Source: a virus
Virus record (IMG/VR): IMGVR_UViG_3300024507_000369
Span: 1 to 64,000 of that record
Reading direction: 5' to 3' (one strand)
DNA length: 64,000 nucleotides
Below are positions 15,808 through 54,385 of the stretch, piece after piece. A program made the position numbers and the translations under genes. How positions within the stretch are numbered: position 1 is the stretch's first letter; the number at the start of each line of letters is the position of its first letter. The notes beneath the pieces are model-generated. The model was not told where the DNA came from. It saw only the letters and a list, made by a program, of their open reading frames with translations, and did not search any database.

Positions 15808-17991
15808 TTAAACTCTACCAGCAACTTCTTCAAAACTTACGCCTGTGCGCGTCGCTACAAATGTTAGAGTAACATAGTTAATTGATTTTGATGGTTTGAG
15901 GAAGATGTCTGCCCTAAACTCATTGTTGTCAATGACATCTGGAGTGTTGTTTGTTTCGTCGCAAATCACTAAGAAGTCGTAAATACCTCTCTTTGCTTGT
16001 ACATCGCGAAGATATGGTTCAACAATATTTACAAAGTTTGCCCTTGTAACTTGATCGTTGATTTCAAATAGTTGTGCTTGAGAAGCTTTTTCTAGAGATT
16101 GTTCAATGGTTAGGAACAATCTTCTAACATTAATTCTATCAAATGCTGAGGCATATGCTAGAGCAGTTTTATCGCCAAAGAGGTAAATGCCGATACCAGG
16201 TTGACTGATAATTGAGTTAACTCTGGAAGTGTAAAGCAGATCTCTTTGTGGTTTATTTGGATTATATGCAAGTTTAATTGCATTATTTAATACACCTCTT
16301 TGCTGACCAGCTGGTGAATACCATGGGAAGGAATTGATATTCGTTCTCATCATTAGACCAGCAATGTCTGCATTGCATGGTACATATCGGAAAAGGTTAT
16401 TAAACCTATCATAAGTGTACTTATATCCACTATCAAATACTGCATAAGATGAAGAGGAAAGTGCGCTGAAGAATCTAACTATGTTTGTTGTTTGTGTAGT
16501 AGTATTTGATAAATTAACTACGCCATCTCTGTGAGGAGAAATTACAGCAATACAATCTTTTCTACCTTCAGCAATTGATATTAACTTATTAGCTTTTGCT
16601 TGAGACTCGGATTCATTTGTAAGTCCAGGACCGTTGATCAGAAAATCAACCTGAACATCATCTTTGTTGGCAAAAAGATCATATGCAGTAGAAATATTTG
16701 ATAAAGTCGCTTGCATACCACCAGTAGAAGAATAATCAACACCACCAACAAGAGTGTAGGTTACATTTCCAATTGCACTATAAACTATGTTTTGTGCATC
16801 TTGTCCCCAAAGACCTTGTGATGTTGTATATGGGGTGTAACCCGAAGAGAATCCAGTTGCTTTTGGAGAGGTTCCATGATAAGAATCCGCACCATTAGAT
16901 GGATTATATCCAGCATAAATGTAGGATGAGAAATTTGATAAGAAATTTTTATACCAAATTTTCTGGGGGGAGTTTACGGAAGATACCGAATCTGCCGCTT
17001 TTGAAAGACTTAAATGCTTTTCAAGAACATTTCCCTGAACTCCAGTAATTGCGCCAGTATCATCAACGATTGCGATATGCATCGCATCATTCTTACCATT
17101 TCTCTGAATTGAATAATTATTTGAAATTGGCTTTGGAGCTATGGACTTCCAGTAAATTATAGAGTTTGTTAAACCAAGAGTTTGCTGATCATACCAATCT
17201 AATGCAGTAGCAACTGTAGATGTACCAGCAGTGGAACCTGAATTATTGACAAAAGTGAGAGTGTCTGATGCTTGGAAAGAATCTATTTCACTTCCTTGAG
17301 CATATGTTGTTGCAGTCTCCGTATTAGCGGCGGATACTCTGGATAGAATCTTTACATCTATACTACTGTTACCATTTGTTGCATCAGTAGTTACTCCAGT
17401 AATAATACCTTTTAAGTAACCATTAAATACGGATGTTGAACCTGCTCCAGCAAGAACTGCATTGCTAATTGGGGTTGTTATACCATATCCAACAATTGCT
17501 CCAATTGAACCTGGATTAGTTGATGCAATGGTAATTCTCTGATCTGCTAGATCGTCAATTAAACAAACTTTTAATTTGTTTCCCCATGATCCTGGGTTTT
17601 TTGCGGAAAATGTGAAATTTGTTGCTGTTGCCCAGTTAGCATTATAATCTTCATAATTTTTAATCTTTGCCGAAGAAGTAGAAGCTGCGCCAACTCCAGC
17701 ATTTGCATTATTTAAAGTAGCACCATCTGTTCTCACAACTTTCAAGATACCACCGTATGAAAGATAAGATGAAGCACTCATCCAATATTCATATTGAGCA
17801 TCAGTTGAAATTGGTTTGCCGAAAGTACTAATTAACTCCTGTTCGGTATTAATATCAATTGCTTGCTCAACTGGTCCGATTGCAAAGGGTCCAGCAATTG
17901 CACCAATATTATCTAATACATTTTCAGCTCTCCCGACTGTTAAATCAACTTCCCTAGTAATTACACCGGGAGACAATTGAGGAGTCGCCAT
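15808..17991 (-). CDS. 18: Contractile tail sheath gp18
   Basis: 727 residues (T4: 659). N-terminus LSPGVITREVDLTVGRAENV and the conserved C-terminal core FLTIEQSLEKASQAQLFEIN through the end are diagnostic. The middle (about residues 110-330) is a variable, surface-exposed insert rich in Ser, Thr and Gly. It is the polymer that contracts to drive the tube through the envelope. The gene is followed by gp19 and preceded by gp17. Confidence 0.98.
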   Translation of the reverse strand: MATPQLSPGVITREVDLTVGRAENVLDNIGAIAGPFAIGPVEQAIDINTEQELISTFGKPISTDAQYEYWMSASSYLSYGGILKVVRTDGATLNNANAGVGAASTSSAKIKNYEDYNANWATATNFTFSAKNPGSWGNKLKVCLIDDLADQRITIASTNPGSIGAIVGYGITTPISNAVLAGAGSTSVFNGYLKGIITGVTTDATNGNSSIDVKILSRVSAANTETATTYAQGSEIDSFQASDTLTFVNNSGSTAGTSTVATALDWYDQQTLGLTNSIIYWKSIAPKPISNNYSIQRNGKNDAMHIAIVDDTGAITGVQGNVLEKHLSLSKAADSVSSVNSPQKIWYKNFLSNFSSYIYAGYNPSNGADSYHGTSPKATGFSSGYTPYTTSQGLWGQDAQNIVYSAIGNVTYTLVGGVDYSSTGGMQATLSNISTAYDLFANKDDVQVDFLINGPGLTNESESQAKANKLISIAEGRKDCIAVISPHRDGVVNLSNTTTQTTNIVRFFSALSSSSYAVFDSGYKYTYDRFNNLFRYVPCNADIAGLMMRTNINSFPWYSPAGQQRGVLNNAIKLAYNPNKPQRDLLYTSRVNSIISQPGIGIYLFGDKTALAYASAFDRINVRRLFLTIEQSLEKASQAQLFEINDQVTRANFVNIVEPYLRDVQAKRGIYDFLVICDETNNTPDVIDNNEFRADIFLKPSKSINYVTLTFVATRTGVSFEEVAGRV

Positions 17992-18024
17992 GTTTTTCTC
18001 CGTAATCTCAGTTTATCTAAAAAA

Positions 18025-18032
18025 TATTTATT
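18025..18032 (-). promoter_or_regulatory. Late promoter octamer (AATAAATA) for gp18
   Basis: AATAAATA on the minus strand, 34 bp before the gp18 ATG in the gp17-gp18 gap. Confidence 0.6.
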
Positions 18033-18043
18033 AAAAAATTGAT

Positions 18044-19690
18044 TTACATATACTCCCACATGTAAGATCTATCCCCATATTCATCTACGAACCATCGATC
18101 GCCATCCGAGTCAACAAAACTTTCATTATCTAGACCATCAGATATAAACCCAAAAGGCGACATATCCTGTTCAATTTGATTTTTTTGTTCTTCATATAGT
18201 CTTTTTCTTACATCTTGATCCGTAAGTTCTTTAAAATAGTCTTGAGCAACCAACCAGGCATAAATGACCAAACACATTGCAAGGTCATCATTGCATCCTT
18301 CTTCTGCTTCAAATGAATTATGTTTTTGAATAAAAGTGGTTAGCTCACTAATTATTTCATAGTCATTTAAATATAATTTATTTTCTTCAATCATAGTCTT
18401 TAAATTAAGACATCCAACTTTTTTTACAGTTTTAGACATCTTAACGCCTAGTTGAGTTTTCTTTCCAGAAAAACCTTGCCCTACAATTTGACCCGCTCTA
18501 CCTCTCATAGAGCACATAAGCAAATTATTATATTCTAAATCGTATTGAAGAATACTTGCAACTTGATCTCCAACATCATTTACTTCACATAAAATATATG
18601 CACTATTATATGCCACTGCTGTTTCCTGAATGATGCTTGGGAAGAGCATTGGTTTTATTTCATTGTTTCTATATTTTGCAACAACTTTATGTGGAAATTG
18701 TGTTATATCAACTACGGTGAAGGCAGAATAATCATTTCCAACACCTCTAGCAACATCAACAGTAATTAAATAATCATGATTTTCTTCTGGATCAACATAA
18801 ACATCCAACCCAGCACTACGTGTTTTGGGATGATCATAAACTAAAGATCTCAGTTTGCTTGGTGCAATAAGAGTATCAACAGACCCTAAAAATTCACATT
18901 CAAACTCAACTTTGAATTGTTGTTCACTTGTATTTGCAATAGTCTGGGCTTTCCATGCTTCGTCTCTACCTGGAACTTCCGACCAATGAACATCAGTGAA
19001 AACATATTCATTTTTACCTTTCTCTGCATCGTGCCACATTCGGTAGAAATGATTCATACCATGTGGAGTAGAAACTATAATAACTTTAGTTTGTTTACCA
19101 GAAGTAATTGTTGGATATACCGAGGCAAAGAATGAGTCTGCAATATGATTTGGAACGAACGCAAATTCGTCCAAGAATAGAATGTTAAATGACATTCCTC
19201 GAACAGCAGAAGCTGATGTAGATGCTGCTAAAATCTTGGAACCATTCTCAAGTTCTAGAGAACCTTTATTCCAAGATATAATTCCTTGCTGCATCCACTT
19301 GGGTAAGTTTTCATAAGCGGTCTGTAACCTATCTAGGAGCTCCCTGGCAGTCGCTGCTTTGTTTGCAAGGATACCTATGTTAACATTGTCGTTAAACACC
19401 GCATAGTGGAGCAGGAAAGACACTACGGTAGTTGACTTACCTGTTTGCCTAGGCATCTTACAGATATTAAATCTGTGGTTATGGAAATTATTAATTAATT
19501 TCTCTTGGAAGTGATATGGTTTAAAAGTTTGTAAACCATGATCCAAGGTCACAATTTTTACATAATTATTTGCAAAATAAACTGGGTCATCCTTACACTT
19601 AACAAATTCAAGAATTTGTTCTTGGGTAAATTCAATTGGCGTATTTGCTTTTTTTAGAAGCGGATTACCAAGATAAACATCATTTGACAT
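18044..19690 (-). CDS. 17: Terminase large subunit gp17
   Basis: A 548-residue packaging motor. Walker A MPRQTGKST at 79-87, Walker B ILFLDEFAF at 170-178. The RNase H-fold nuclease begins at ITVDVARGVGNDYSAF (about 310-326), and NDD with its acidic residues occurs near 460. ATP-driven DNA translocation and headful cutting. Unlike T4, where genes 16 and 17 overlap, it is separated from gp16 by a 2-kb gene. Confidence 0.98.
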   Translation of the reverse strand: MSNDVYLGNPLLKKANTPIEFTQEQILEFVKCKDDPVYFANNYVKIVTLDHGLQTFKPYHFQEKLINNFHNHRFNICKMPRQTGKSTTVVSFLLHYAVFNDNVNIGILANKAATARELLDRLQTAYENLPKWMQQGIISWNKGSLELENGSKILAASTSASAVRGMSFNILFLDEFAFVPNHIADSFFASVYPTITSGKQTKVIIVSTPHGMNHFYRMWHDAEKGKNEYVFTDVHWSEVPGRDEAWKAQTIANTSEQQFKVEFECEFLGSVDTLIAPSKLRSLVYDHPKTRSAGLDVYVDPEENHDYLITVDVARGVGNDYSAFTVVDITQFPHKVVAKYRNNEIKPMLFPSIIQETAVAYNSAYILCEVNDVGDQVASILQYDLEYNNLLMCSMRGRAGQIVGQGFSGKKTQLGVKMSKTVKKVGCLNLKTMIEENKLYLNDYEIISELTTFIQKHNSFEAEEGCNDDLAMCLVIYAWLVAQDYFKELTDQDVRKRLYEEQKNQIEQDMSPFGFISDGLDNESFVDSDGDRWFVDEYGDRSYMWEYM

Positions 19691-19705
19691 AATAAACTCT
19701 ACTTA

Positions 19706-21694
19706 TTAGTTACAATTCCAACGACGAAGTGCTTTATTGATCCTTGAATCTGGATCCCTTGCGGTTTCTGCTGAGGTTAATCTTTTTTTCATTCCAGACA
19801 TACGACTGCAAAAATTTTTTCTCCTCTGCGCTCTTTTTCCTGTTGGATTTTTTTCAGTTACTGCAGTTTGAAGTTTTGAACCTGGATTCTCACGACGATA
19901 AGCATTTACTGCTTTTTGACTAAGACCATCAGTTTTATCTTTACGATTTACTGATTGCCAATCTTCATCAATTTCAACTTCTTCTCCCATAGTTTTTACA
20001 TAATTTTTACTTGGACCTGGTTTTGCTGCACTGCCTCCCTGAGGTCCAAATGCTTGAATTAATGGTTGTCCTGGTTGAATCTCGGAAACTGAATGGTAAA
20101 CAACCATTGATCCCGGATAAACTTTTTGAAGTTCGCTATTAATTTCTTTTCTTGAAGGAATTTTTACCTGGGGGAAAAACATCTTCATTGCATAATATTT
20201 ACCTCTCCAAGAAAGAGTGACTGCAATCACATTGCCAGTTTGCGCCTGAAGTCTTGTTGCTTCATCTATTTCTATTTGAGTCTTAAAACCTTTAATTGGT
20301 TCTGGTTGAATTAAATCAACAACTTCCGCAAAAGTATTCCCTTCAGCATCCTCTATGGTTACATCTTCCGCCTTTACGCAGTTTGGATAACGCTTTCCAA
20401 ACATTGTTTTCATACCTTTCTTTTTATAACCAGGCCAACATTTTTCTACCACAAATTCATTTGTAATTTTATCAACTAAGGTTTGTTCTTTAATTTTTGG
20501 AAGTTCTGGAGTTGGACCCAATTTTTTAGAAGCAACTTCCTTTTCTCCTCCAACACCGCTTTTTGCTAAAGACCTTATTTTTTCTCTTTTTCTTGCAGTT
20601 TTATGTGATGACGGATCAATGGTAAATCCAAAAGATTCTTCCATTTCTCCACTTGCAACATAATCTGCTGCAGTATCAATATAATCTGCTGCTTTGGTAA
20701 TCTTTGATTGAACCCATGCTTCTAAAGATCCTTCACCTTTACCTACCTTCTTTTCAAGTCTTTTAGCAGCATCAATAATATTTTTAAGTTCAGATCTAGC
20801 CATTGAATATTCTTGATCTTTTACAGAAACCTTATCCCATGCTTTTTCGCCATAAGAACATTCAGATCTTGTTTCTCTTTTATCACATAAAGGACAATAT
20901 CTTTCTTCTTCATGTGCAGTTTCTTCTGATTTAGTCCCCCAATTTGCAGCACCAACTTTACGGCATTTTACTAATGCTCCAGATGCATATGCACTAGGCC
21001 AAACATCATATCTAGATTTTACTTTATGATAACAAGCGTCCTTTTTTCCACTACCTTTTCCTTTTTTATCAGATTCTTCATTCATTTTTTTCTTCCTTCC
21101 TTGACAATGAGCTCTCTGAGAAAATCCTTTAGGGTTGTCACAATCTATAGATTTTTTATATTTATCGGACCAATCTTCTTTAACAGATTTTTCTGGTTTA
21201 TCTGTAGAAACATATGTTGGTTTTGCAGCTCCTGTTTTTTGCTGCTGACCTGGATCTGCTGCTTTTTTTCTTCTTGCTGCAGAAAGTCTTTGTGCTTTAG
21301 TCATACTTGCTCTTTTTGATGAAGAAACACATTTTGGTGTTCCCTCACCTGGTTCATCGCTTGCACAAGTTCCACCAGTTACAACATTTACCCATCCAGA
21401 TTTTCCATCCTTTGATTTGGATTTGCCAAACCAATCGCGAAGACCTTCTTCAGTAACATCTTTAAATTTTTTGTGGTGCTTTTTAGCATCTGCTTCCATT
21501 TTTTTCAAACGAGTATAATAATCTGGAATTTCGTCGAGATGTTGTAAAGCAATATCACGGGCAAGATCGTGGTCTTTAGTATGCTCATGCTCAATTGGTT
21601 CTCCCATATCAAGTTGTCTTTGTATAAAAGAAACATCAAGACGATGTTTCTTTGCAATTTGCTCAACTGTTTTATGGGACTTAAATTTAGACAT
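19706..21694 (-). CDS. 662-residue mosaic basic protein between terminase subunits
   Basis: Built from short modules. Residues 1-75 resemble DUF5661 (HEHTKDHDLARDIALQHLDE). About 80-165 is LRDWFGKS followed by GGTCASDEPGEGTPKC, resembling DUF6321. About 178-255 is two Cys motifs, DNPKGFSQRAHCQGRKK and KDACYHKVKSRYDVWPSAYA. A zinc-finger-like CPLCDKRETRSEC lies near 268-280, CWPGYKKKGMKTMFG near 420. The segment near 500-535 is shared with the gp68-like protein. A basic C-terminus ends SRINKALRRWNCN. Such Cys/Lys modules recur in T4-like marine phages. I infer a DNA-contacting or virion-associated role; the function is unknown. Confidence 0.75.
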   Translation of the reverse strand: MSKFKSHKTVEQIAKKHRLDVSFIQRQLDMGEPIEHEHTKDHDLARDIALQHLDEIPDYYTRLKKMEADAKKHHKKFKDVTEEGLRDWFGKSKSKDGKSGWVNVVTGGTCASDEPGEGTPKCVSSSKRASMTKAQRLSAARRKKAADPGQQQKTGAAKPTYVSTDKPEKSVKEDWSDKYKKSIDCDNPKGFSQRAHCQGRKKKMNEESDKKGKGSGKKDACYHKVKSRYDVWPSAYASGALVKCRKVGAANWGTKSEETAHEEERYCPLCDKRETRSECSYGEKAWDKVSVKDQEYSMARSELKNIIDAAKRLEKKVGKGEGSLEAWVQSKITKAADYIDTAADYVASGEMEESFGFTIDPSSHKTARKREKIRSLAKSGVGGEKEVASKKLGPTPELPKIKEQTLVDKITNEFVVEKCWPGYKKKGMKTMFGKRYPNCVKAEDVTIEDAEGNTFAEVVDLIQPEPIKGFKTQIEIDEATRLQAQTGNVIAVTLSWRGKYYAMKMFFPQVKIPSRKEINSELQKVYPGSMVVYHSVSEIQPGQPLIQAFGPQGGSAAKPGPSKNYVKTMGEEVEIDEDWQSVNRKDKTDGLSQKAVNAYRRENPGSKLQTAVTEKNPTGKRAQRRKNFCSRMSGMKKRLTSAETARDPDSRINKALRRWNCN

Positions 21695-21713
21695 CGACCG
21701 ATAGTATTTTTTC

Positions 21714-21721
21714 TATTTATT
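21714..21721 (-). promoter_or_regulatory. Late promoter octamer (AATAAATA)
   Basis: AATAAATA on the minus strand, 20 bp before the 662-residue gene and overlapping the gp16 stop codon. Confidence 0.55.
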
Positions 21722-22151
21722 GGTCTAGAGACCCTTCAGAACTTTGTTGTTTTAATAACTTTGCTAATTCTGCAGTAGAACCGACAAAAAGTGCATTATT
21801 TACTGTAGTTGGACCTTTTGGTTTGTCTTCTTCAATATCTTTTATCTTCTTTTGCAAGTCCATTAATTTGTCTGTTGCATCAGCAACATTTTTAATTAAC
21901 TGTCCCGCAACTTCATATGCTCTAGGCATTTCACTTTCTTGAGCTAATTCTAAAATACCATTAATTGCTTCTTGACCTTTCTCAATCAATGAATACAAGT
22001 TACCTCTAGTGTATTCATAATCTTTTTTTATGTCGTTATTTGCATTATTAATGGTTTCTATTTTTTCTTCAACTACTTCTGGATTTTTTACTATCTCAGT
22101 AGAAACATTAAAAGTTTCATTTAAGTCTTTAAATTTTTTTGTCATTTTCAT
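21717..22151 (-). CDS. 16: Terminase small subunit gp16
   Basis: 144 residues (T4: 164), highly helical with a central coiled coil (YEVAGQLIKNVADATDKLMD). It recognises concatemeric DNA and regulates gp17. It overlaps gp15 by 4 bp. The position two genes before gp17 supports the call despite the inserted 662-residue gene. Confidence 0.9.
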   Translation of the reverse strand: MKMTKKFKDLNETFNVSTEIVKNPEVVEEKIETINNANNDIKKDYEYTRGNLYSLIEKGQEAINGILELAQESEMPRAYEVAGQLIKNVADATDKLMDLQKKIKDIEEDKPKGPTTVNNALFVGSTAELAKLLKQQSSEGSLDQ

Positions 22152-23149
22152 GATATTGTACCACTAAATCCAAAATCATCTCCCACTTGTATTAGAGCGT
22201 CATCAGCATCTGTTATCTTTTTAACTGGAGAACCTAAAACATGAGCAGATGCAACAGTTTTATCAGCACCTCTTACAACGGTTAAAACATTACCAGTTTT
22301 TGATTTCACTAACATTTCTTCCTCATCAATGTAGATGTAAGTATTACTACTAATATTTGATGAGTCATTAACCGAAATTGATGTATCTGTTGCGGATACA
22401 TCAACAGATAAATTAGTAGTTATTTGGCCAGTATAATTTTTAGTTGCTCTAGGTTCAACACTGTAAACAATTTCTCTTGTTGGAGTTTTTGTAGTATCTC
22501 CAGAAATAAGTCCAATAGAAACTCTTCTGATAACATCCGAAGAAGCAGAAGAAATAGGACCAAAAAGATATGTTTTTGCAGTAAATCTCAAAGTATAAAT
22601 TAATGATCTTCTAGTAGAAAAGTCACCCTCATAATCATCGGACATTGAAATACTATTCAATACAACGGGAATATCTCTTTTTTCCCCAATTTGTTCTACT
22701 AAGTCAATTGTCATCGTATAAGCTGGTTGAAAATATGGTAAAATTTGCTCAATAATTTGAAGCATATCATCATTCAACTTAGTGAATATACTAACTTCAA
22801 AATCTAAATTATATGGAACTGGTAAATATGACTTTTTTTGTTGGGTTTTATCGGTTACTGAAGTTGTTAAAAATGTTTGAGTAGTTGTCGCTTTTCTTGA
22901 TGAATCGTATGACAATCCAACCAATTCAAATGACATTCTAGGTAAACTTATTTGAATTGGTTTATTGAGGTCTGGTGATTGCTCAATTCTTGCTAAAAAT
23001 TTCTGTGTTGGTCCATATGCCAAAGGAACTTTAATAACACTAACCGTGTTATCATTGTTATTTGTGTGTTTGATAGAAATATTGTTAAAAAGAGACCCAA
23101 AGGAAACTACAGTTCTTCTTAATATTTCGTGATAAAAATACTCAAACAT
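22148..23149 (-). CDS. 15: Tail sheath stabiliser / tail completion gp15
   Basis: 333 residues (T4: 272). Starts MFEYFYHEILRRTVVSFGSL and contains PYNLDFEVSIFTKLNDDMLQ and LPYFQPAYTMTIDL, diagnostic of gp15. It caps the tail and joins it to the neck. The extra ~80 residues at the C-terminus hold an IDDE-type module (YIYIDEEEMLV, then LTVVRGADKTVASAHVLG), also seen in larger baseplate proteins here. Confidence 0.95.
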   Translation of the reverse strand: MFEYFYHEILRRTVVSFGSLFNNISIKHTNNNDNTVSVIKVPLAYGPTQKFLARIEQSPDLNKPIQISLPRMSFELVGLSYDSSRKATTTQTFLTTSVTDKTQQKKSYLPVPYNLDFEVSIFTKLNDDMLQIIEQILPYFQPAYTMTIDLVEQIGEKRDIPVVLNSISMSDDYEGDFSTRRSLIYTLRFTAKTYLFGPISSASSDVIRRVSIGLISGDTTKTPTREIVYSVEPRATKNYTGQITTNLSVDVSATDTSISVNDSSNISSNTYIYIDEEEMLVKSKTGNVLTVVRGADKTVASAHVLGSPVKKITDADDALIQVGDDFGFSGTIS

Positions 23150-53714: not shown

Positions 53715-53771
53715 TTATTGTGCCACTTTAACTTGTGTCACATGGTATAAACAATCGGAGCAACTCACCAT
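53715..53771 (-). CDS. Possible 18-residue micro-ORF (M V ... KVAQ)
   Basis: ATG overlaps the TGGTGA end of the previous gene. Encodes MVSCSDCLYHVTQVKVAQ. Its end coincides with the DNA motif GTGGCACAATAA that recurs in leaders, so the reading frame may be incidental. Confidence 0.2.
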   Translation of the reverse strand: MVSCSDCLYHVTQVKVAQ

Positions 53772-53938
53772 CTGTCAGGTACACTTAGGTCTTCAACATA
53801 AGCATCACACTTCTCTGCAGGTTCCAACTTGAATAACTTCTCCCAATCAATCTGATGTGGGTCGAAGTCACCGAACACTGATAGATCCAGAGTGATCCTA
53901 TAACGCTGCTTCTGTGCTTGACTGTATGCTACTGACAT
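53765..53938 (-). CDS. Small protein behind the early minus-strand promoter
   Basis: 57 residues from the ATG at 53938: MSVAYSQAQKQRYRITLDLS, then FGDFDPHQIDWEKLFKLEPA and AYVEDLSVPDRW. Shine-Dalgarno GGAG 8 bp upstream. First gene after the consensus minus-strand promoter at 53967-53995, so likely immediate early. Function unknown. Confidence 0.75.
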   Translation of the reverse strand: MSVAYSQAQKQRYRITLDLSVFGDFDPHQIDWEKLFKLEPAEKCDAYVEDLSVPDRW

Positions 53939-53966
53939 AAGTGCGCTCCGTTGGTGTATGTGAAAC

Positions 53967-53995
53967 ACTATAAGATGCCTGTGAGAACTTGTCAA
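53967..53995 (-). promoter_or_regulatory. Consensus sigma70 promoter, minus strand
   Basis: TTGACA (53990-53995), 17-bp spacer, TATAGT (53967-53972). Fires towards the 57-residue gene 29 bp away. The -35 is perfect; the -10 has one mismatch. Confidence 0.85.
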
Positions 53996-54069
53996 GTCCT
54001 GTGGGGTATTTATGAGCGAGTGGTGGATTTATGTGGGGGATGTGTGGGGATTTTGTGACGCTGGGGGTA

Positions 54070-54098
54070 TTGACATTTGTGCGGAGTGCTGATATAAT
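54070..54098 (+). promoter_or_regulatory. Perfect consensus sigma70 promoter, plus strand
   Basis: TTGACA (54070-54075), a 17-bp spacer and TATAAT (54093-54098) match the Escherichia coli consensus exactly. It points into the tandem repeats, where no convincing gene exists. The start site would be near 54105. Confidence 0.9.
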
Positions 54099-54111
54099 GC
54101 ACGGTAAGATC

Positions 54112-54210
54112 ACAAGGTCTGAGCACATTTATAAGCACATAAGTACAAGACCTCAGCACATTTATAAGCACATAAGTACAAGACCTCAGCACATTTATAA
54201 GCACATAAAT
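54112..54210 (+). repeat. Three 33-bp tandem repeats
   Basis: Units start at 54112, 54145 and 54178. Copies 2 and 3 differ at one base; copy 1 has GGTCTGAG for GACCTCAG. Each contains two AGCACA words around TTTATA. The first copy's GGTCT and the GGTCTT just after copy 3 can pair with AGACC/AAGACC of the internal copies. The unit is a multiple of three, so both strands stay open, which explains ORF-like frames without implying coding. Confidence 0.95.
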
Positions 54211-54352
54211 GGGTCTTAATTGATACTAATTCTTATCATTATCACCTTTTAATAACAATAATTATCAGAGAATAAAAACACGCATATACATTTAAAAATA
54301 CATTTTTAATTGATTTTATATCATTTTATCGTTATATTGTATTAAAAAGCAT
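54211..54352. other. AT-rich non-coding tract after the repeats
   Basis: About 140 bp, mostly A and T, with no gene on either strand. Together with 53939-54111 it completes a 447-bp gene-free region. It resembles a DNA-unwinding element next to a promoter; a transcript from the plus promoter would cross it, but no U-tract terminator is seen on that strand. Confidence 0.6.
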
Positions 54353-54380
54353 AAAAAAGAGAGGGATTTGTTCCCTCTCT
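54353..54380 (-). terminator. Intrinsic terminator closing the early minus-strand operon
   Basis: Stem AGAGAGGGA/TCCCTCTCT (54358-54366, 54372-54380) with a 5-nt loop, followed on the minus strand by TTTTTT. Lies 5 bp beyond the stop of the 58-residue gene. Confidence 0.9.
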
Positions 54381-54385
54381 GAGCA

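Follow-up and report, generated by a model that had tools for sequence, protein, structure and literature searches.

A conserved gene-free element with exchangeable binding-site modules in T4-like cyanophages: a candidate replication origin

Results

A promoter, repeats and an AT-rich tract in a gene-free stretch

The stretch of DNA analysed here (the window) comprises positions 1 to 64,000 of IMG/VR virus record IMGVR_UViG_3300024507_000369, a record of 144,882 bp of the T4-like cyanophage type; among named phages, the T4-like cyanophages SynMITS9220M01, Bellamy and S-SM2 are closest to it. Elsewhere, the record carries two genes for photosystem II reaction-centre proteins (Photo_RC), at 141849-142721 and 138984-139808; a contig titled as a gammaproteobacterial metagenome-assembled genome (MAG) encodes a psbA 92% identical to that of the phage and is probably mis-binned cyanobacterial or phage DNA. 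Around the locus of interest, the neighbouring genes all lie on the minus strand, both among the open reading frames (ORFs) of the window and in annotated relatives. One of them, a 57-aa gene assigned to phrog_12516 (unknown function; 53765..53938, minus strand), served as the marker for retrieval of the locus: its relatives are encoded on 438 IMG/VR stretches, and 22 rows were aligned.

Pattern searches place two predicted promoters beside this gene, both of which had been read from the sequence in an earlier note on this DNA and both of which are present. The divergent promoter of the 57-aa gene itself, TTGACA-N17-TATAGT, lies on the minus strand (53967..53995) and agrees with the consensus at 11 of 12 positions. 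The second, TTGACA-N17-TATAAT on the plus strand (54070..54098), agrees at 12 of 12, has a TG before the −10, faces away from the neighbouring genes and would read into the gene-free stretch, antisense to them; neither strand of the 64-kb window has another exact TTGACA-N16..18-TATAAT. At its expected transcript start, comparison with relatives picks out a conserved sequence, TAAGATCAC (54105..54113, plus strand). Three 33-bp direct repeats with the core GCACATTTATAAG follow head-to-tail (54112..54210, plus strand), beginning about 7 nt past the predicted start; the second and third repeats are 91% and 88% identical to the first.

Beyond the repeats lies a putative exchangeable binding-site module (54219..54268), recognised by motif comparison with relatives and belonging to what we call class C: copies of TTATCA stand 23 bp apart, preceded by a TGATAC..TTATCAT stretch, and TATCATTATCACC, from this module, occurs exactly once in the 144,882-bp record. 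The module gives way to an AT-rich tract containing CATATACATTTAAAAATACATTTTTAAT (54269..54356), which we propose, from its AT content and core motifs, as an unwinding element. The roughly 140 bp of AT-rich DNA noted earlier at this place is borne out, AT content being 81% at 54211-54356 against 66% window-wide; the best 140-bp stretch at the locus ties with one other as the most AT-rich in the window, scanned in 5-bp steps. An intrinsic-terminator-like hairpin of the next minus-strand gene (54358..54380, minus strand), with no plus-strand T-run, closes the element.

Two further remarks in the earlier note stand in part. That this is the only gene-free stretch over 300 bp hinges on how ORFs are counted; when minus-strand ORFs of at least 45 aa are counted as genes, the gap is 181 bp, because small ORFs overlap 53939-54204. 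That each repeat carries, on the minus strand, a near-match to a late octamer is correct for TATAAATG; however, CATTTATA is found in just 37 of 100 relatives, so that a late promoter there is not conserved and was rejected. A coding reading of the repeats (a 62-aa plus-strand ORF is in frame with the 33-bp unit) was also set aside, as both the unit and its copy number vary among relatives, and so was the 57-aa protein as an initiator, as it has no Pfam match and belongs only to phrog_12516.

Conservation of the element among relatives

Relatives were gathered through a gene-based search (best 80 of 438) and from further sources, which yielded the 57-aa gene in at least 163 loci with at least 134 distinct upstream regions. 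A loose pattern for the element matched 118 of the 134 upstream regions, the misses being regions shorter than 200 nt or regions without a match (five, in two of which, L072 and L104, a variant start is visible). Among the elements, 104 had at least 260 nt beyond; four (L096, L110, L173 and L220) were dropped after inspection by eye revealed no element, leaving 100 distinct elements as the base for analyses of DnaA boxes, folding, promoters and AT content, trees, repeat counts and density. These 100 were gathered before any search with the DnaA motif.

The earlier note had proposed a search of relatives for the same promoter-repeat arrangement at the same locus, and there the arrangement is kept. 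The least biased count comes from the 59 distinct loci that were fetched by the neighbouring gene alone (from the best 80 of 438) and have at least 200 nt upstream: an antisense promoter with an AGATCAC-like start is present in 58, at 126-154 nt from the ATG of the 57-aa gene, against matches to the same loose pattern in 5 of 59 reversed regions. The single miss, L077, has an identical layout with a −10 that the pattern rejected.

Across the 100 relatives, the −35 is TTGACA in 97, which places the predicted plus-strand promoter beyond chance, and the spacer is 17 nt in 74; the −10 is most often TATGCT (23) or TAGACT (17), and TATAAT in just eight. A promoter-like match for the 57-aa gene, divergent from the first and found with a permissive pattern, is present in all 100, at a median of 28 nt from the ATG. 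The order of parts runs from the promoter through [TA]AGATCAC, repeat-like units (0 to 5 per element on a loose count), the module and the AT tract to the terminator of the next minus-strand gene. AT content peaks beyond the module, at 0.78 about 180 nt after the start of the −35, with flanks of about 0.61; core motifs of the AT tract occur in 74 elements; and terminator-like sites are found on the minus strand in 53 and on the plus strand in three. The gene-free stretch is thus a real, conserved element.

Among more distant named relatives, S-SCSM1 and S-SRM01 have the layout, S-SRM01 without AGATCAC; P-TIM68 and S-B05 carry the 57-aa gene with no element within 1,100 nt upstream. Other repeats were seen upstream of relatives of this gene: several copies of a partly palindromic 11-mer, CTCGTCGAGAT, in S-SRM01 (L461) and L096, and, in L173 and L220, which have no element, a CGAATCTTATCTAATCACGAATGA-like unit repeated about 70-75 nt apart, perhaps another array of sites.

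DnaA boxes in class A modules

The evenly spaced sites of the element lie in the segment after the 33-bp repeats, a segment that had not been singled out in the earlier note. In class A they are copies of TTTTCCACA, the published cyanobacterial DnaA box as given in two papers (PMC3480399, PMC4674748). At least one perfect box, in either orientation, is present in 38 of the 100 elements (0.82 expected by shuffling), and 32 elements contain at least two. Boxes in direct orientation usually stand 21 bp (19 pairs) or 42 bp (10 pairs) apart, which corresponds to two and four turns of the helix; of all boxes, 70 are on the plus strand and 14 on the minus. Within the elements, the boxes reach a density of 2.77 per kb, against 0.016 per kb for the remainder of these contig pieces, and 200 letter-permuted 9-mers gave a mean of 0.42 hits inside the elements, with a maximum of 10. 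Loci from the gene-based search alone (best 80 of 438) give a similar picture, with a box in 19 of 51 full-length elements and a pair 21 or 42 bp apart in 14. Most boxes fall 70-230 nt downstream of the −35, and their distance from the ATG of the 57-aa gene is about 195 nt or more.

The S-SM2 genome has three perfect boxes, two of which lie at the element, 21 bp apart. The cluster of boxes beside the AT tract, with its perfect box in 38 of 100 relatives, is absent from the module of the window, which has no perfect box, as is the case in 62 of the 100 elements, the window included; the 144,882-bp record holds just two isolated boxes, equal to its reversed control. Pairs 21 bp apart were found in 135 locus-strand instances, 37 of them with an element upstream, and among the other 98, at least one (L257) is an element cut by the end of its contig. 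Many of these 98 (for example L124, L129, L172, L252 and L267) have no recognised element; such pairs often sit in a longer GTTTTCCACAG array and are further candidates for phage origins. Among the titles and abstracts listed in searches of open-licence papers for phage origins, none reports a DnaA-box origin in cyanophages.

Classes B and C

Two other classes of module are arrays with 23-bp spacing, of ATTCTCA in class B and of ATTATCA in class C, the class of the window. In class B, TTCTCAA recurs at 23-bp intervals and is followed 20-21 bp on by a copy in inverted orientation; class C has copies of TTATCA 23 bp apart behind a dyad-like stretch. Our first class rule, applied to 104 elements, gave 38 in class A, 23 in B, 17 in C and 26 in none (22 within the set of 100), with class B mixed, about half of the 23 being true arrays by eye; strict rules, applied to the 100 elements, gave 32, 13, 18 and 37. 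Several of the 22 unclassified elements resemble, by eye, class C or a Fur-like palindrome. As a variant of the DnaA box, class C is a poor match by eye.

Fur binding sites are described by a 7-1-7 half-site model. The core of class B, ATTCTCAATAAA, agrees by eye over 12 letters with AAATAAATTCTCAATAAAT, the consensus that one paper proposes for FurA of Anabaena (PMC4005646), so that Fur is a lead for class B that comes from sequence agreement. With up to two mismatches, the class B motif has 15 matches in eight of 11 host genomes, against two in the reversed control. Eight of these 15 lie inside ORFs, and none of the five neighbouring proteins inspected for the other seven was recognised as the product of an iron gene; the motif as a site of the host iron regulon is thus unsupported by gene context in these 11 genomes.

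Exchange of modules

To follow the modules against their surroundings, a tree was built on the flank, that is, on the 57-aa gene and the intergenic DNA up to the promoter. On this tree, the three classes of the 78 classified elements require at least 25 changes, compared with a mean of 33.6 for shuffled labels, which never gave 25 or fewer in 200 trials; under the strict classes (63 elements) there are 18 changes, against 26.7 for shuffled labels (least 21), and 10 for A versus C alone. As the changes are fewer than with shuffled labels and yet many, the classes are somewhat clustered and have been exchanged on many occasions. Elements of differing class have, in the closest pairs, flanks that are 90-92% identical. 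The window, in class C, falls in a set of five whose other four members are class A (SH-aLRT 95 on a quick tree, a support to be taken with caution), and each of its five nearest rows belongs to class A, under the strict rule as well. Sequence comparison thus indicates that the module between promoter and AT tract has been repeatedly swapped among phages, often for DnaA boxes of the host type.

Cultured phages and host genomes

Twenty whole phage records were searched with a promoter + GATCAC pattern, which recovered true elements in four (S-SM2; Bellamy, where the locus is at 73.3 kb; SynMITS9220M01; and S-SCSM1) and four further places that are chance-like, the reversed control giving five. 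A pair of DnaA boxes was likewise present in four of the 20 (S-SM2, S-PM2, Syn1 and S-WAM1; none in the reversed control); the T4 genome has no such pair. S-PM2 and Syn1 possess an analogous arrangement, with an antisense TTGACA, an AT tract and then DnaA boxes, between T4-GC 68 and 637, near the location of the S-SM2 element; the AT tract of S-PM2 contains TATATTTTTTAATACATTTTTAAT, and the −10 sequences are poor by eye (TAAGCC and TAAGAC, respectively). Annotated features overlie the boxes in both phages: a 135-bp CDS in Syn1 and two tRNAs in S-PM2, where ARAGORN found no tRNA in the stretch. About nine tRNA features are annotated at 16500-22500 of S-PM2 (L490), the two over the DnaA boxes and AT tract among them, and their coordinates may be off. 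In S-WAM1, the box array directly follows a gene, in sense orientation, and the 400 nt preceding the array contain no promoter match.

On the host side, boxes with one mismatch occur, as counted by eye, upstream of dnaN in eight of 11 Synechococcus/Cyanobium genomes, two or more of them in seven, and in four genomes these near-boxes are 20-21 bp apart on opposite strands. Perfect pairs were found in just two of the 11 genomes.

Discussion

A candidate origin related to, and distinct from, those of T4

The earlier note had offered two readings of this locus, a non-coding RNA or a replication origin of the T4 type with the repeats as iterons. Our own view leans, by a modest margin of belief, towards the element being a replication origin of a type related to that of T4 and distinct from it, with an exchangeable initiator module. 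The conservation of the module and its anatomy, spacing, enrichment and exchange are what was observed, and from there we infer how transcription, protein binding, unwinding and replication would follow one another. Early in infection, host RNA polymerase carrying its vegetative sigma factor would begin transcription at the outward promoter and proceed through repeats and module into the AT-rich tract. There the transcript may stay annealed as an R-loop and prime leading-strand synthesis, as at oriF and oriG of T4. The two to four sites of the module, at intervals of about two turns of the helix, would be bound by a protein that aids opening of the tract or loading of the replisome: host DnaA in class A and another protein in the ATTCTCA and ATTATCA classes, the window included.

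To our knowledge, T4 needs no DnaA, and its oriF lies where uvsY stands next to gene 25. On the S-SM2 map, these genes are apart from each other, gp25 lying at 61.0 kb and uvsY at 105.1 kb, and the element is found at 58.1 kb; identity with oriF by synteny was therefore rejected. The T4-type reading thus survives in its promoter, downstream AT tract and conserved spaced sites, with DnaA boxes in 38 of 100 relatives, and fails on the map position of oriF. As for the iterons, the 33-bp repeats are not the best candidates: their copies vary from none to five on a loose count, and the regular sites are in the next segment. Nor does the proposed GC-skew check lend support: at four-fold sites, the element coincides with no switch, in either S-SM2 or the window, so skew was dropped as evidence for an origin, although the test is a weak one, T4-like phages later turning to recombination-dependent replication. 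Against an origin, too, the element is not universal in the family, being found in 4 of 20 whole phage records and missing from P-TIM68 and S-B05.

In a published account of T4 replication, oriF and oriG consist of a promoter and an A+T-rich unwinding element at which an R-loop of the transcript primes DNA synthesis, and oriE of an early promoter and 12-nt iterons whose role is open (PMC3016281). The cyanophage element shares with oriF and oriG a promoter reading into a downstream A+T-rich element; unlike theirs, which is MotA-dependent, its promoter is of the host early type (full TTGACA −35 in 97 of 100), and an array of sites stands between promoter and AT tract. With oriE it has in common an early-type promoter and evenly spaced direct repeats (here 21/42 bp and 23 bp apart) that are conserved in relatives; the oriE iterons are 12-nt units, whereas the cyanophage sites are 9-mers 21 bp apart or 6-7-mers 23 bp apart and come in exchangeable classes, one of them DnaA boxes. 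The same box, TTTTCCACA, and near-boxes upstream of host dnaN link the element to cyanobacterial oriC, from which it differs in that no dnaN or dnaA is annotated beside it in annotated relatives, a promoter reads into it and many members lack boxes. For lambda, a paper describes iterons with transcriptional activation and DnaA-box-like sites downstream of pO that are protected by DnaA (PMC3985674), a precedent for transcription and DnaA acting jointly at a phage origin; lambda, though, supplies its own initiator O, whereas the class A sites match the host box and no phage initiator is known.

A bolder form of the origin reading, which we hold only tentatively and think rather improbable as it stands, treats the element as a cassette: promoter and unwinding element would stay fixed and the initiator array would be swapped, for DnaA boxes or for sites of other host proteins such as those of the Fur family, so that the start of phage DNA synthesis would be keyed to whichever host protein is present or active.

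Other explanations

It is somewhat less probable again that the element is a cluster of sites for host proteins and no origin at all, through which the phage DNA would titrate host regulators or put them to use and so alter host replication or gene expression, or control the adjacent promoters; the proteins involved would be DnaA for class A, one of Fur type for class B and perhaps a relative for class C. Differing types of protein site at one place would suit such a role, as would the great density of DnaA boxes at the element, the 12-letter agreement of ATTCTCAATAAA with the proposed FurA consensus AAATAAATTCTCAATAAAT (PMC4005646) and the excess of class B matches in host genomes (15 against 2 in the reversed control, in 8 of 11 genomes). 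Yet the sites per element are few, AT-tract motifs are present in 74 of 100 elements and, by eye, accompany modules of every class, and the boxes, for the most part 70-230 nt downstream of the −35, keep a distance of about 195 nt or more to the ATG of the neighbouring gene; moreover, 8 of the 15 host matches are inside ORFs and no iron gene was recognised beside the other seven. An unlikely alternative, though one with a parallel in this phage group, is that the plus-strand promoter makes a conserved RNA, non-coding or antisense, with the role of a regulator or a sponge. An RNA of comparable kind would be CfrI of S-PM2, which a review describes as an antisense RNA of a T4-like cyanophage (PMC2984593) and which shows that such phages make antisense RNA. 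Antisense transcription is likewise predicted for the window element; CfrI, however, is antisense to psbA and an endonuclease gene, and the Photo_RC genes of the window record, at 139-143 kb, are far from the element. The promoter and the first nucleotides, AGATCACAAG, are conserved, some repeats have GGTCT/AGACC partners, and the predicted RNA of the window folds better than its shuffles (z −3.35 over 276 nt; −2.44 for the repeat part). Over the 100 relatives, with 25 shuffles each, the mean z is −1.38 for 200 nt of the plus strand, −1.72 for the minus strand, −0.67 for the first 85 nt and −0.58 for random 200-nt windows, so that structure in the repeat part does not exceed that of random windows and the 200-nt excess is as large on the minus strand, which folds as well as the plus; such an excess, not greater for the transcribed strand, is what one would expect if dyads in DNA sites were its source. 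Plus-strand terminators in just three of 100 relatives, the exchange of the body of the RNA between relatives and two Rfam matches, both far below the gathering score, also count against it. The structured RNA of the earlier note is thus left weak, with no strand-specific structure or 3′ end over the 100 relatives and no Rfam family at the gathering score.

We judge it very improbable that the element is an early promoter serving a mobile gene for a homing endonuclease, with the gene often lost. A plus-strand ORF with the look of a homing endonuclease, mostly GIY-YIG, follows the AT tract in 10 of 100 relatives by eye (L020, L050, L053, L056, L060, L065, L066, L070, L075 and L227; those of L056, L065 and L066 are nearly identical), but the other 90 have no such ORF and keep promoter and start, and the variety of ORF types suggests that such genes were inserted repeatedly beside a site already in place. 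We give equally little credence to a site for some other DNA transaction, such as a packaging start, a recombination hot spot or a partition-like site; arrays of sites and AT-rich DNA do have such roles elsewhere, but this would leave the promoter into the AT tract and the DnaA boxes unexplained.

Significance

Where replication starts in these phages is the question that the origin reading addresses: according to a 2010 review, a single theta origin had been predicted for Syn9, and whether the same holds in other sequenced cyanomyoviruses was not known (PMC2984593). The element supplies a precise candidate of about 450 bp in the cultured phages S-SM2, Bellamy, SynMITS9220M01 and S-SCSM1, with an analogous one in S-PM2 and Syn1, and bears on the role of the T4 oriE iterons, which a published account leaves open (PMC3016281). 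If the origin reading is right, the host initiator DnaA, or its sites, would have been brought into an origin of the T4 type, and, with an initiator module open to exchange, phages would have a novel route to evolving host dependence.
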